Assembly: GCF_022760925.1 (NCBI RefSeq)
Contig: NZ_JAKTNT010000004.1
Coordinates: forward strand, 1 to 64,000
From: Thermus hydrothermalis
GTDB lineage: Bacteria; Deinococcota; Deinococci; Deinococcales; Thermaceae
Reading direction: 5' to 3'
Length of the DNA: 64,000 bases
The translations under genes and the position numbers were made by a program. Numbering within the stretch: the first letter of the stretch is position 1; each line of letters starts with the position of its first letter. This document shows positions 29,759 through 47,773 of the stretch, in pieces. Under the pieces are notes generated by a model. That model was given only the letters and a program-made list of their open reading frames with translations, searched no databases and was not told the origin of the DNA.

Positions 29759-30442
29759 CTAGGCCCGGGACCAGGGGACGTAGAGCACGGGAAGCGGGCT
29801 CACAAAGGGCTCGGCGTAGTCCACCCCCAGGTAGTTGCCAAAGTAGCGGCGCATGGCCTTGCGGGCCTCCACCCCTCTAGGCCCCACGGTCTCGCTCGCC
29901 GCCTCCCCGGAAAACTGGCTCCTGTAGGCCAGGACCGCCTGCTCCCACTGGTCTATGAAGGCGGAGATCTTCACCAGGAAGCTGGGGGTGAAGGGGTGGT
30001 TGCCCGGGTAGAAGAAAAGCCTTTCCACCCGGTGGGGCTCCCCCTCCACGGGGGCCTTCTTCAGGCCCGCCAGGTGGAGGGCAGCCACCGCCAGGCGGCT
30101 TGCCGCCGTGTGGTCGGGGTGGCGGTCGGCCTCGAGGGGAGCGAAGAGGATGCGGGGCCGAAGCCTCCGCAAGGCCTCCGCAAGCCTAAGGCGCTGCTCG
30201 GGGATGTCGGCAAGCCCCCCGTCGGGAAGCCCTAGATTTCCCCGGAAGTCCAGGCCCAGGATGCGGCTCGCCTCCGCCACCTCCCGGGCCCTCTCCTCCG
30301 GGGTGCCCTTGGTGCCCATCTCCCCCCGGGTAAGGTCCAAGATGCCCGTGGAAAGCCCCTCCGCCTTGGCCCTGGCCAAGGTCCCCCCACACCCGAGCTC
30401 CCCGTCGTCGGGGTGGGGGGCGATGACCAAAAGGTCAAGCAT
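29759..30442 (-). CDS. bshB1: Bacillithiol biosynthesis deacetylase BshB1
   Basis: PIG-L/LmbE family zinc deacetylase removing acetate from GlcNAc-malate, second step of bacillithiol synthesis. Zinc ligands and base come from APHPDDGELGCGG (about 8-20) and RHPDHTAAS (about 109-117). DLTRGEMGTKG and NLGLPDGGL are BshB1-type sequences, distinguishing it from mycothiol or chitobiose enzymes. 227 residues. Its start overlaps plsY by 8 nt. The bacillithiol disulfide reductase-like YpdA at 40666-41661 supports the pathway assignment. Confidence 0.9.
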   Translation of the reverse strand: MLDLLVIAPHPDDGELGCGGTLARAKAEGLSTGILDLTRGEMGTKGTPEERAREVAEASRILGLDFRGNLGLPDGGLADIPEQRLRLAEALRRLRPRILFAPLEADRHPDHTAASRLAVAALHLAGLKKAPVEGEPHRVERLFFYPGNHPFTPSFLVKISAFIDQWEQAVLAYRSQFSGEAASETVGPRGVEARKAMRRYFGNYLGVDYAEPFVSPLPVLYVPWSRA

Positions 30443-31037
30443 CCCTCACCTCCACCCGCTCCCCAAGCCGCCTTTCCGTGCCCGCCTGGAGGCGCTTTAG
30501 GTTTTCCCGGTGGGTGAAGAAGATGAGGAAGGCCATGAGGGCCACGGTGCCCACCTCCCAGAGGGGCCGCCCCAGGGCCAAGGCGAGCACCAAGGCCGCC
30601 ACCCCCCCGGTCATGCTCCCCGCCGAAACGTAGCGGGTGAGGAGCATCACGGATAGCCCAATGGGCAGGGTCCAAAGGGCGAGGGCTGGGTCCAGGAAGA
30701 GAAGGGTGCCGAAGCTGGTGGCCACCCCCTTCCCCCCTTTAAACCCCAAGAACACGGAGTAGTTGTGCCCCAAGACCGCCGCCAAGGCCACCCCCCCAAG
30801 CAAGGGCCCCTCTATCCCCACCGCCCGGGCGATGAGCACGGCAATGCCCCCCTTGAACACGTCAAAGAAGGCCACCACGAAGGCGGGGCCAGGGCCCAAG
30901 GTCCTAAGGACGTTGGTGGCCCCGATGTTCCCCGAACCCACCTTGCGGATGTCCACCCCGTAGGTGCGGGCCACCAGGACCCCCGCCGGGATGGAGCCGA
31001 AGAGGTAGGCGAGAAGGAGGACCCAAAGCCAGTCCAT
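30435..31037 (-). CDS. plsY: Acyl-phosphate:glycerol-3-phosphate acyltransferase PlsY
   Basis: Integral membrane enzyme making lysophosphatidate from acyl phosphate. All three motifs are canonical: GSIPAGVLVART with VGSGNIGATNVLRTLG, GHNYSVFLGFKGGKGVATSFG, and THRENLKRLQAGTERRLG. 200 residues, about six membrane helices. ATG 31037 follows a short leader; longer readings lack the family N-terminus. Contrast with the degenerate PlsY-like domain at the N-terminus of the 553-residue fusion protein at 45233-46894. Confidence 0.95.
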   Translation of the reverse strand: MDWLWVLLLAYLFGSIPAGVLVARTYGVDIRKVGSGNIGATNVLRTLGPGPAFVVAFFDVFKGGIAVLIARAVGIEGPLLGGVALAAVLGHNYSVFLGFKGGKGVATSFGTLLFLDPALALWTLPIGLSVMLLTRYVSAGSMTGGVAALVLALALGRPLWEVGTVALMAFLIFFTHRENLKRLQAGTERRLGERVEVRDA

Positions 31038-44554: not shown

Positions 44555-44579
44555 AGGGGGCCGGGAGAGGCCCCCTTTA
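44555..44579 (+). terminator. Terminator after sodA
   Basis: GGGGGCC-GGGAGA-GGCCCCC (44556-44575) followed by TTTAT. The mqnB stop on the other strand begins inside the tail. Confidence 0.8.
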
Positions 44580-45233
44580 TCCTTCCAAGAGGCGGGCCAG
44601 GGCCTCCTCCAGGGCCGCCACCGCCTCCTTCACCCGCCAGGCCCCCTTGTCCCGGACGCCGGCGGGGTTGGAGATGGCCCGAAGCTCCGCCCCCCGGATG
44701 CCGAGGGCGAGGCAGGCCCGGGCGAAGGCCGCCCCCTCCATGTTCTCCAAGGCGGCGTTCCACCGGCTGGCCAAGGCCAGGGCCTCCTCGAGGCCTTCTG
44801 AAACCAGGTCCCGGGTGAGGCCGGTGACGACCCGAAGGCCGAGGCTCTGGGCCAGGCTTTGGGTGAGGCCAGGATCCAGGGGAAAGCGGTTAAAAAAGTA
44901 GAGCTTTTCCCCAAGCTCCAAGGCCGGGAAGCCCAAGGGAGCAAGGCCCTCCTTTAGCCCCAGGTCCGCCTCTACCTCCTCCCCCACCAGGACCAGATCC
45001 CCCGGGCGGAGGCCGCTACCCGGGTAGGCCCCGGCGATGCCGAAAAGGAGGGCCTTTTCCACCTCGTGGGTGGCCGCCCAAAGGGCCAGGGCGAGGGCGG
45101 CATTGACCTTGCCGATGCCCGTTTCCAGGTAGACGAACCCCTCCCCCCTAAGCCCCTTCCGCCCGAGGAAGGCGAAGGGCTCGCCCCGGAGGAAGGGGGC
45201 CTCGAGGGCCGTGGGGGAAAGGAGGAGCCACAC
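44577..45233 (-). CDS. mqnB: Futalosine hydrolase
   Basis: Nucleoside phosphorylase-fold enzyme that releases hypoxanthine from futalosine in the alternative menaquinone pathway, first characterised in T. thermophilus. [13 protein letters not shown] start, [56 protein letters not shown] with the catalytic Glu region and [11 protein letters not shown] (Asp replaced context 'N-P-A-G'). 218 residues. GTG start shares its G with the TAG stop of the upstream fusion gene (TAGTG), so translation is tightly coupled. Confidence 0.88.
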
Positions 45234-46894
45234 TAGTCCACCACCCGGAAGCCCAAGGCCTCCGCCCGCTCCACGAAGAACTGGATGTTTTCCCCTTTGA
45301 GCTCTCCCCCCAGGCTCTTGCGGTCAAAGGCCTCCTCCGCCGCCAGGATCATGGTTTCCGCCAGGCAGGCGGGGACCTGGTCCCGGGCGCCAAAGTGGAG
45401 GTCCAGGGTGGCCCAAGCCTCCCCGGGAAGCCGCACCACCCCCCCGGGGATGACCCGCACCCCCGGCACCTCCCTCACGGAGGGGTGGACGTCCGGGGGC
45501 ACCCCCTCATCGTAGATCCAGGCCCCGGGCTTCACGTGCTCGGGGTAGATGACGGGGTTGGGGTCGCTGGTGGCGGTGAAGACGAGGTCCGCCTCCCGGA
45601 TGGCCCCCACCTCGGTGCTCACCTGGATCTCGGGGGCTTCCCCTTTCCGCTCCAGGTTTTTCCTCAAGGTTTCCGCCGCCCGCCCAAGCCGTTCCAGGTC
45701 CCGCCCCACCAGGATGAGCCGGCCCACCAGGGGGGCGATCTGCCGGGCGATGCCGAAGGCCACCACCCCGTTGGCCCCCACCACGGCGGCGGTGGTGGCC
45801 TTTAGGTCCTTGCCGCTTTGGGCGAAGTGGGCGAGGATCTGGGGGATGGCCGCCTTTACCGTGCCAGCGGTGTAGGCGCCGCCGTTGGTCACCTGGATCC
45901 CCGGCACCGCCTCCTGCACCCTCTTCCCCTTCTCCCCCACCACGCTCCAAAAGGCCCCCAGGCCCACCACCGTGGCCCCAAGCTCCTGGGCGAGCCTCGC
46001 CCCCTGGATGGCCCGCCTCACGGCAAGCTCGGGCTTCCCCTTGATCTGGTGGGGCAGGAGGGGGGCGGAGATCAGGTGGCAGAGCACCTCCCGCCCGTCC
46101 GCCGTCTTCACCCCGCGCACCTCCCCCACCTTCATGGGGCGGAAGCGCTCCGCAAGCCCCTCTATCCACTCCTTTCGCAGAAGCCCCAGGCGCACCAAGG
46201 GCCTAAGCCAGCGGAACCGGGGGCTTTGCCAAAAATCCTCTAGGGTAAGGGGGTGGATGAGGAAGGCGCAGACCACCTGCTTTTCCGAGGGGAGGGGCAA
46301 GGGGTTTCCCAGCTTGGGCTCGGTGCCCTCGAGGATCCGGCCCAGGTTCTCCTTGTAGCGCCAAAGGGCGAGGAGAAGGAGCCCCCAGGCGAGAAGCCTT
46401 TCCACCCCGCCCCACCCCCCGAGGAACCCCGCCAAGACGAGGCCCAAGGGAAGCCCCAAAGCCCCCAAGGAGGCGTAGCCCGTGAGGGCGTAAAGGGCAA
46501 GCCCCAGGGCCACGGGCACCATCCCCAAGGCGGGGGGCAAGGGAAGCCCCGCCACGATGCCCAAGAGGACCCCGGCCCCCTTGGCCCGAAGCGGCCAAGG
46601 GTCGCGCAGGAAAAGGGGGTAGAGGTGGCCCAGGTAGGCCGCCATCGCCAGAAGGAGAAGCTCCGCCAGGGAAAGCCCGAGGGCGCGCCCCAAGAGGAGG
46701 GGGAGGTACCCCTTCAAGAAGTCCAGGGCAAAGGCCAGGAGGGTAAACCCTATACCTAGGCGCCTAACGGCGTTTTCCAGACCCAAGGTGTAGGGGCTTG
46801 CCGTGCGCAGGTCTACCCCCCGCCGCCGGGCGAGCCAGTACCCCAAAGGAAGCGCCCCCACCGCGTATGCCAAGGGAAGCAAGAAGGCGGTCAT
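45233..46894 (-). CDS. Fusion: degenerate PlsY-like membrane domain plus acyl-ACP-reductase (AAR)-like dehydrogenase
   Basis: 553 residues. Residues 1-196 have six helices and a PlsY outline: ALPLGYWLARRRGVDLR, GHLYPLFLR and WRYKENLGRILEGTEPKLG. The GSGNxGATN box is replaced by ASPYTLGLENA and FKGGKGVAT by LRAKGAGVLLG. Residues 205-553 resemble cyanobacterial aldehyde-forming acyl-ACP reductase (COG5322-like): RLAQELGATVVGLGAFWSV, NAD(P)-binding VVGANGVVAFGIARQ (about 371-385) and PACLAETM, whose Cys510 aligns with the AAR catalytic Cys as I remember it. Suggested role: membrane-bound reduction of an acyl donor to fatty aldehyde for unusual lipids. Overlaps mqnB by 1 nt and the exporter gene by 4 nt. 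Confidence 0.7.
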   Translation of the reverse strand: MTAFLLPLAYAVGALPLGYWLARRRGVDLRTASPYTLGLENAVRRLGIGFTLLAFALDFLKGYLPLLLGRALGLSLAELLLLAMAAYLGHLYPLFLRDPWPLRAKGAGVLLGIVAGLPLPPALGMVPVALGLALYALTGYASLGALGLPLGLVLAGFLGGWGGVERLLAWGLLLLALWRYKENLGRILEGTEPKLGNPLPLPSEKQVVCAFLIHPLTLEDFWQSPRFRWLRPLVRLGLLRKEWIEGLAERFRPMKVGEVRGVKTADGREVLCHLISAPLLPHQIKGKPELAVRRAIQGARLAQELGATVVGLGAFWSVVGEKGKRVQEAVPGIQVTNGGAYTAGTVKAAIPQILAHFAQSGKDLKATTAAVVGANGVVAFGIARQIAPLVGRLILVGRDLERLGRAAETLRKNLERKGEAPEIQVSTEVGAIREADLVFTATSDPNPVIYPEHVKPGAWIYDEGVPPDVHPSVREVPGVRVIPGGVVRLPGEAWATLDLHFGARDQVPACLAETMILAAEEAFDRKSLGGELKGENIQFFVERAEALGFRVVD

Positions 46895-47355
46895 CGCAGG
46901 TAGTTTAGCCCGGCCACCGCTCCCCCGGTGAGGAGGAGGACGATAAGCCCTGCGGCCAGGACCCCCAAGGAAATGGCCAAGAAGGCGTAGCGCCGCCTAA
47001 GCCCGAGCACCACGGCGAGGACCGCCCCGCTCCAGGCCCCGGTGCCGGGAAGGGGCACGGCCACGAAGAGGAAAAGGCCCAAAGCGCCGAGCCTTTGCAC
47101 CTGCTCTTCCCCCTTTAGCCGAACCCGGGCCTCGAGGGCCCGCCAGAGCCGGGCAAAGAAGGGGTGGCGGGTGATTAGGCCCACCGCCCAGGGCAGGAGG
47201 GCCAGGGCCACGGGGGCCACCAAGAGGTTGCCGAGAAGGCTCAAGAGAAAAGCCTCCCACGGGGGAAGCCCCAAGGCTACCCCCAAGGGGATCGCCCCCC
47301 TTAGCTCCACCACGGGCAGGGCGGCCACCAAGACCACGTAAAGCTCAGGCGGCAT
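46891..47355 (-). CDS. Small multidrug-export-like membrane protein (PF06695-type)
   Basis: 154 residues, four to five helices. VVLVAALPVVELRGAIPLGVALGL and VPLPGTGAWSGAVLAVVLGL are the two conserved blocks of the 'Sm_multidrug_ex' family (reported in parts: LPVVELRGAIPLGVA and VPLPGTGAWSGAV). True substrate unknown despite the family name. ATG 47355 lies only 4 nt beyond the T-run of the rplT terminator, so it is expressed either by read-through or from an unseen start. 4-nt overlap with the fusion gene. Confidence 0.8.
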   Translation of the reverse strand: MPPELYVVLVAALPVVELRGAIPLGVALGLPPWEAFLLSLLGNLLVAPVALALLPWAVGLITRHPFFARLWRALEARVRLKGEEQVQRLGALGLFLFVAVPLPGTGAWSGAVLAVVLGLRRRYAFLAISLGVLAAGLIVLLLTGGAVAGLNYLR

Positions 47356-47359
47356 GGTC

Positions 47360-47397
47360 AAAAAAAGCGCCCTGCCAGGAAGCCTCCCGCAGGGCGC
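47360..47397 (-). terminator. Terminator of the rpmI-rplT transcript, abutting the next start codon
   Basis: Stem GCGCCCTGC/GCAGGGCGC (47367-47375 with 47389-47397), followed on the minus strand by TTTTTTT, GACC and the ATG at 47355. Confidence 0.85.
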
Positions 47398-47410
47398 CAA
47401 GGGGCACGCT

Positions 47411-47773
47411 TTAGGCCGAGGCCCGGGCGGCCTTGGCCCTTTCCACGAGCTCGGCAAAGGCCTGGGGCTCCCGCACCGCCAGATCCGCCAAGACCTTGCG
47501 GTCCAGCTCCACCCCCGCCTTCTTCAGGCCGTGGATGAAGGAGGAGTAGTTGAGCCCGTGCTGGCGGCAAGCGGCGTTGATGCGCACGATCCAGAGCTTG
47601 CGGAAATCCCGCTTCTTCCGCTTGCGGTGGGCGTAGGCGTAGTTCCCAGCGGCGAAGAGGGTTTCCCGGGCCTTGCGCACGCTCTTGGAGCGAAGGCCCC
47701 AGTAGCCCTTGGCGAGCTTCAGAATCTTCTTGTGCTTCCTGCGGCGGACAACCCCGGTTTTGGCGCGCGGCAT
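47411..47773 (-). CDS. rplT: 50S ribosomal protein L20
   Basis: 120 residues, basic. [25 protein letters not shown] start and [20 protein letters not shown] are diagnostic. Binds 23S rRNA early in 50S assembly and in many bacteria represses its own operon through the mRNA leader. It follows rpmI by 12 nt with GAGGTAGAGG upstream. Followed by a strong terminator. Confidence 0.98.

Follow-up and report, generated by a model that had tools for sequence, protein, structure and literature searches.

The cyanobacterial acyl-ACP reductase (AAR; TIGR04058, structure 6jzu) works with an aldehyde deformylating oxygenase. An AAR-type thioester reductase domain with a catalytic Cys is also found in PigE of the prodigiosin MAP pathway (NF053554; 4ppm), a soluble protein in which the reductase is fused to an aminotransferase, and in PtTamH of tambjamine YP1 biosynthesis, a transaminase-thioester reductase that turns fatty acyl-ACP into a fatty amine (PMC9594044). 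In vitro, TamH and its partner TamA converted a C12 acid to the C12 amine and the aldehyde was detected; acyl-CoA was not accepted by TamH (PMC9594044). A PigE-containing lysate turned a thioester into the aminated product, and purified PigE showed no reductase activity (PMC8341465). The TAD domain of carmabin biosynthesis (9e4s and others), from another natural-product pathway, shares the reductase fold. The membrane acyltransferase PlsY (PF02660, TIGR00023; 5xj5-5xj8) has been described structurally, and the roles of its residues and the definition of its acyl-phosphate pocket are taken here from the crystal-structure paper (PMC5700162).

In the phosphoglycolipid of T. thermophilus HB8 an iso-C17 alkylamine is amide-linked to glyceric acid, and D. 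radiodurans has the same scaffold (PMC3398001). Meiothermus ruber has the alkylamine phosphoglycolipid as its major phospholipid, and this lipid has been regarded as a chemical marker that identifies the lineage unambiguously (PMC3035268), and Oceanithermus has the same lipid as judged by Rf (PMC3111992). Its first description was from Deinococcus in 1985, going by a reference in PMC3035268. The enzymes that form the third chain of this phosphoglycolipid had not been identified as of 2022 (PMC9636437).

We analysed a window of 64,000 nucleotides from Thermus hydrothermalis (contig NZ_JAKTNT010000004.1), in which one gene joins a PlsY-like membrane domain to an AAR-type reductase. This fusion is most likely an undescribed membrane enzyme of Thermus and its phylum that makes aldehyde from fatty-acid building blocks. 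A literature search found no title or abstract describing a fusion of PlsY with an acyl-ACP reductase, an absence that is itself weak evidence.

The fusion gene and its neighbours

The genes considered at this locus, in positions of the window, are:

45233..46894, minus strand: fusion gene, PlsY-like membrane domain plus AAR-type acyl-thioester reductase (open reading frame and sequence)
44577..45233, minus strand: mqnB, futalosine hydrolase (TIGR03664, 6e-54)
46891..47457, minus strand: gene for a PF06695 small membrane protein (7.7e-38), upstream of the fusion
30435..31037, minus strand: canonical PlsY, for contrast

The fusion frame runs from an ATG start to a TAG stop and encodes 553 residues. 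A preliminary description of this DNA had proposed a PlsY-like and AAR-like fusion beside a separate, normal PlsY, and both observations hold: the intact frame matches PF02660 and the AAR and PigE families and recurs in most genomes of the phylum (see below), and the canonical PlsY scores 172 bits against TIGR00023, above the cut-off of 137.2. The 1-nt overlap with mqnB was likewise confirmed, reading ...GACTAGTGTGG... on the minus strand, and we found an additional overlap of 4 nt between the PF06695 gene and the fusion start.

Since the two genes overlap in Thermus and lie close together in Meiothermus and Calidithermus, the fusion could act with MqnB in menaquinone biosynthesis, and a role around quinones had been raised at the outset. 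Among the loci compared, however, mqnB adjoins the fusion in these three genera only. In the Marinithermus-type loci that were read, the fusion follows infC-rplT-PF06695 and mqnB is absent beside it, while in Trueperaceae its flanking genes are dnaB-like on one side and PrmA/RsmE-like on the other (gene names assigned by eye from translations in both cases). We consider a joint menaquinone function extremely improbable and treat mqnB as a neighbour, outside the proposed function of the fusion. No lipid genes were found in an operon with the fusion in any of the loci compared.

The C-terminal half is an AAR/PigE/TamH-type reductase domain

Three features define the reductase half:

45236..46276, minus strand: AAR/PigE/TamH-type reductase domain, residues 207-553
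45365..45367, minus strand: codon of the catalytic Cys510 (SeAAR Cys294)
45767..45778, minus strand: dinucleotide loop G373-A-N-G376 (GATGDIG in AAR)

By sequence search, residues 254-529 matched the solved AAR structure 6jzu (7.7e-12) and residues 278-549 matched the PigE structure 4ppm (2.9e-13). An AlphaFold (AF2) model of the fusion built from 33 orthologues had a mean pLDDT of 88.2 and a pTM of 0.85; using VIA-align, its residues 208-553 superposed on residues 1-338 of SeAAR 6jzu with a Z score of 26.2 (321 residues, rmsd 3.4), and the three-domain fold of AAR is present in the modelled reductase half. The TAD domain resembles this half less closely in sequence, at 18% identity with Z scores of 20.6-22.

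Among curated families the nearest to the reductase half is PigE (NF053554, 4.5e-31), at 108 bits compared with 55.9 for AAR (TIGR04058, 4.2e-15). Both scores fall below the respective cut-offs of 850 and 449.7 bits, and the PigE match covers profile positions 49-333 only; no aminotransferase domain was detected within the fusion protein. On these scores the fusion is a relative of the cyanobacterial AAR that lies outside the TIGR04058 equivalog. It shares the fold, the Cys and the dinucleotide loop with AAR but is only 24% identical to it, and AAR has no membrane domain. PigE-type and TamH-type proteins, in which the reductase is joined to a class III aminotransferase, are its nearest other relatives. 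The Thermus fusion differs from PigE in carrying the PlsY-like membrane domain and in leaving the aminotransferase to a separate gene, and from PtTamH in domain order, in the membrane domain that PtTamH lacks, and in that PtTamH serves secondary metabolism with a C12 tail. In a tree of the reductase domain the fusion sequences formed a single supported group whose position among PigE, TamH-type proteins and AAR is unsure, with long branches.

Cys510 occupies the alignment position of SeAAR Cys294 and of the corresponding Cys in PigE-type proteins, and is present in every orthologue of two alignments (28/28 and 33/33). The GANG loop at 373-376 is conserved except in the most divergent of the aligned sequences, with G373, A374 and G376 invariant, and conservation among orthologues is high (68% mean column identity). 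The earlier assignment of the C-terminal part as AAR-type, with its Cys and nucleotide loop, is thus supported by sequence and by fold, and the fusion is very probably an aldehyde-forming acyl reductase.

When the reductase half was compared with plasmid sequences, the only matches were aminotransferase-linked proteins and a Deinococcus remnant described below. The reductase precedes the class III aminotransferase in Thioclava, Methylocystis and Pseudoalteromonas, in prodigiosin-type clusters, and follows it, in the TamH order, in Haematobacter and Pseudorhodobacter. Domains that are fused in both orders elsewhere often act in sequence. The alphaproteobacterial plasmid proteins of TamH-like order are those at L090:3612-6317 and on L148; the Haematobacter protein lies outside a prodigiosin-type cluster and probably makes an unknown amine.

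The N-terminal half keeps an acyl-phosphate pocket on a PlsY fold

The PlsY-like half comprises:

46307..46894, minus strand: PlsY-like membrane domain, residues 1-196
46577..46627, minus strand: kept acyl-phosphate pocket, His90, Arg103, Lys105 and Gly106 (aaPlsY His92, Lys104, Gly105)
46763..46795, minus strand: degenerate first PlsY box, residues 34-44 (Ser35 to Pro34, Thr41 to Glu40)

Residues 8-187 matched PF02660 (G3P_acyltransf) at 3.5e-26 and 92.7 bits, above the gathering score of 24.1, and the domain matched PlsY 5xj5 at 4.9e-21 using phmmer. Residues 1-195 of the model superposed on 5xj7, the acyl-phosphate form of PlsY, with a VIA-align Z score of 20.6 over 187 residues. Against the PlsY equivalog TIGR00023 the fusion scored 69.6 bits, short of 137.2, so that by curated cut-offs it is placed outside the AAR, PigE and PlsY equivalogs alike. 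Profile comparison of the two halves, which had been suggested at the outset, thus put the first in the PlsY family and the second nearest to PigE and AAR with the Cys kept.

Residue conservation was counted over 28 aligned orthologues, with aaPlsY numbering for the reference residues. His90, Arg103 and Gly106 were present in 28/28, as was Lys or Arg at position 105; Arg103 is an additional invariant residue in the acyl-phosphate pocket region of the fusion. The Ser35 position of PlsY was occupied by Ala, Pro or Val in 27 orthologues and by Ser in one, and the Thr41 position by Glu in 27/28. In PlsY, Thr41 contacts the acyl carbonyl (PMC5700162). The full clamp for glycerol-3-phosphate (G3P; Ser35, Arg45, Lys104 and Asn180 with Ser142 and His177) was not found intact across the 28 sequences, in which several of its residues were changed: His177 was kept in 5/28, Ser142 in 12/28 and Asn180 in 16/28, while Arg45 was Arg in 22/28 and Lys104 was Lys or Arg in all. 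The PlsY boxes had been described as lost, which is accurate for the degenerate first box and the G3P-binding residues but not for the second box, where His90, Arg103, Lys/Arg105 and Gly106 persist.

Since the G3P clamp is gone while the acyl-phosphate pocket is strictly kept, the PlsY-like half is probably not a G3P acyltransferase, but it could, from its residue pattern, still accommodate acyl-phosphate. The acyl-phosphate-forming enzyme PlsX is present. We tentatively suggest that the PlsY fold has been turned into an acyl-phosphate holder: PlsX-made acyl-phosphate might dock there and pass its acyl group to Cys510 for reduction, so that a PlsX-fed aldehyde reductase would commit fatty acids to the marker-lipid alkylamine. 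Alternatively, the N-terminal half could still be an acyltransferase that moves the acyl group of acyl-phosphate to some acceptor that is not G3P, with the reductase supplying or editing a second substrate. The invariant pocket residues and the close superposition on the acyl-phosphate form of PlsY would suit such an enzyme; given that Ser35 and Thr41 are replaced in 27/28, that His177, Asn180 and Ser142 vary and that no candidate acceptor suggests itself, we judge it highly unlikely.

Besides the fusion and the canonical PlsY, the genome encodes a third PlsY-like protein of 180 residues (C15:61876-62415; L099:17877-18416), which keeps the GSGNxGALN and RGGKG boxes without the last PlsY motif and has relatives across the phylum.

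The fusion is distributed across the Deinococcota

Of 111 Deinococcota genomes, 107 carry the fusion either whole or in large part, and the joining of the two domains is therefore not a matter of chance. All 111 genomes gave a match, which in four (G072, G076, G077 and G100) was only at the level of ordinary PlsY. Single-frame fusions were recovered from five families, among them the 28 aligned here, and named carriers include Thermus, Meiothermus, Calidithermus and Trueperaceae. The family groups are labelled f1 to f5, where f4 (Marinithermus/Oceanithermus-like) and f5 (Trueperaceae) are identified by inference.

The 111 genomes include no Deinococcus. In the Deinococcaceae, the control genome Deinobacterium chartae matched in the AAR family search, although Methanocaldococcus also matched, so this is not proof of the fusion. 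A plasmid of Deinococcus sp. QL22 carries a 34-codon remnant of the fusion gene (L079:5001-5102), 68% identical and beside a transposase gene. Together, the D. chartae match and the plasmid remnant are indirect sequence signs of the fusion in this family. Actinobacterial matches from the contig scan (L070-L076) were rejected as FolD-type sequences with a chance NAD-fold match. In Thermus parvatiensis RL a frameshift breaks the fusion gene near its C-terminus (L039:8001-9542); the aminotransferase match in what is apparently the same genome (G060) is also broken, and both breaks are therefore probably sequencing errors.

With its intact Cys and its place outside any lipid operon, the AAR-type domain could supply fatty aldehyde or alcohol for some other product, such as a minor ether lipid, a wax, a signal or an aldehyde shunt, and contribute to no major lipid. 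Presence in 107/111 genomes combined with the high column identity argues instead for a core role. Aldehyde deformylating oxygenase (PF11266) was detected in none of the 111 phylum genomes, whereas the control Synechococcus matched; cyanobacterial-type alkane synthesis, which needs this enzyme, is ruled out. We regard a minor product of this kind as distinctly unlikely.

A candidate aminotransferase partner

Searching the T. hydrothermalis genome with the PigE-like aminotransferase domain gave C15:54330-55562 as the best match (1.1e-94; the next was 1.4e-56), and close relatives of this class III aminotransferase occur in 44 of the 45 f1 and f4 (Thermaceae- and Marinithermus-type) genomes searched. 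Its best family match is putrescine aminotransferase, so this PigE/putrescine-type enzyme may serve polyamine metabolism instead, and its assignment as partner is insecure. The gene does not adjoin the fusion in Thermus, and lies about 6 kb from it only in Meiothermus granaticius. A YbgC/FadM-type thioesterase gene adjoins the PigE/putrescine-type aminotransferase gene and is followed by an RNase R-like gene (L099:9922-11566), an order that recurs in Meiothermus (L042, L172).

Families f2, f3 and f5 are without the f1/f4-type enzyme and have instead another aminotransferase of about 490 residues, which was found in 31 genomes at 1e-90, none of them f1 or f4, with partial copies masked by runs of N in at least four more. 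Most Trueperaceae carry this second type, whose best NCBIfam match is PigE. In a tree, both types fell on the side of PigE and the putrescine aminotransferases, separated from ArgD/LysJ-like enzymes with support of 96/92. Apparent giant aminotransferase fusions of 1,900-2,100 residues in some Trueperaceae (L160, L161, L173) were discarded, as runs of N there mimic open frames.

A proposed route to the alkylamine of the marker lipid

We propose that the fusion is an NAD(P)H-dependent reductase of long-chain acyl groups that is anchored in the membrane. A fatty acyl group would be loaded on Cys510, the resulting thioester reduced with NAD(P)H and a fatty aldehyde released, with the PlsY-like half anchoring the enzyme, perhaps holding the acyl group as acyl-phosphate, and transferring nothing to glycerol-3-phosphate. 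The separate class III aminotransferase would then aminate this aldehyde, giving the long-chain alkylamine that an amide bond joins to glyceric acid in the phosphoglycolipid that marks Deinococcus, Thermus and Meiothermus. We think it somewhat more likely than not that the fusion makes the aldehyde from which the aminotransferase forms this alkylamine, and for the missing first step of alkylamine synthesis no better candidate than the fusion has yet emerged.

The aldehyde had earlier been linked to ether, diol or alcohol lipids, which could still receive it, but the alkylamine is favoured over these because the related two-domain enzymes hand their aldehyde to an aminotransferase and the marker lipid holds an alkylamine. 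For the diols, the aldehyde or a 2-hydroxy-aldehyde would be reduced further to long-chain 1,2-diols. Diols are known from Thermus (Wait 1997, as given in reference 22 of PMC3398001), M. ruber may hold small amounts (PMC3035268), Truepera yielded compounds that fit iso-C18 and iso-C15 1,2-diols (PMC3072082), and the membranes of T. roseum are all diol (PMC2615216). The characterised two-domain relatives, however, yield amines, and the fusion occurs almost throughout the phylum, in much of which diols are minor or unreported. Diols are also unknown from Deinococcus, where usual methods would miss them (PMC3072082), yet a Deinococcaceae genome gives an AAR-family match. We therefore consider a diol product unlikely, though the aldehyde could serve diols, the alkylamine or both.

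If the alkylamine route is correct, the fusion would be an unusual instance in which a PlsY fold lost G3P transfer and kept its acyl-phosphate pocket, and a reductase-aminotransferase route so far seen in natural-product pathways would serve core membrane lipids. The conserved gene pair across the phylum makes a decades-old gap in the biosynthesis of its marker lipid testable.
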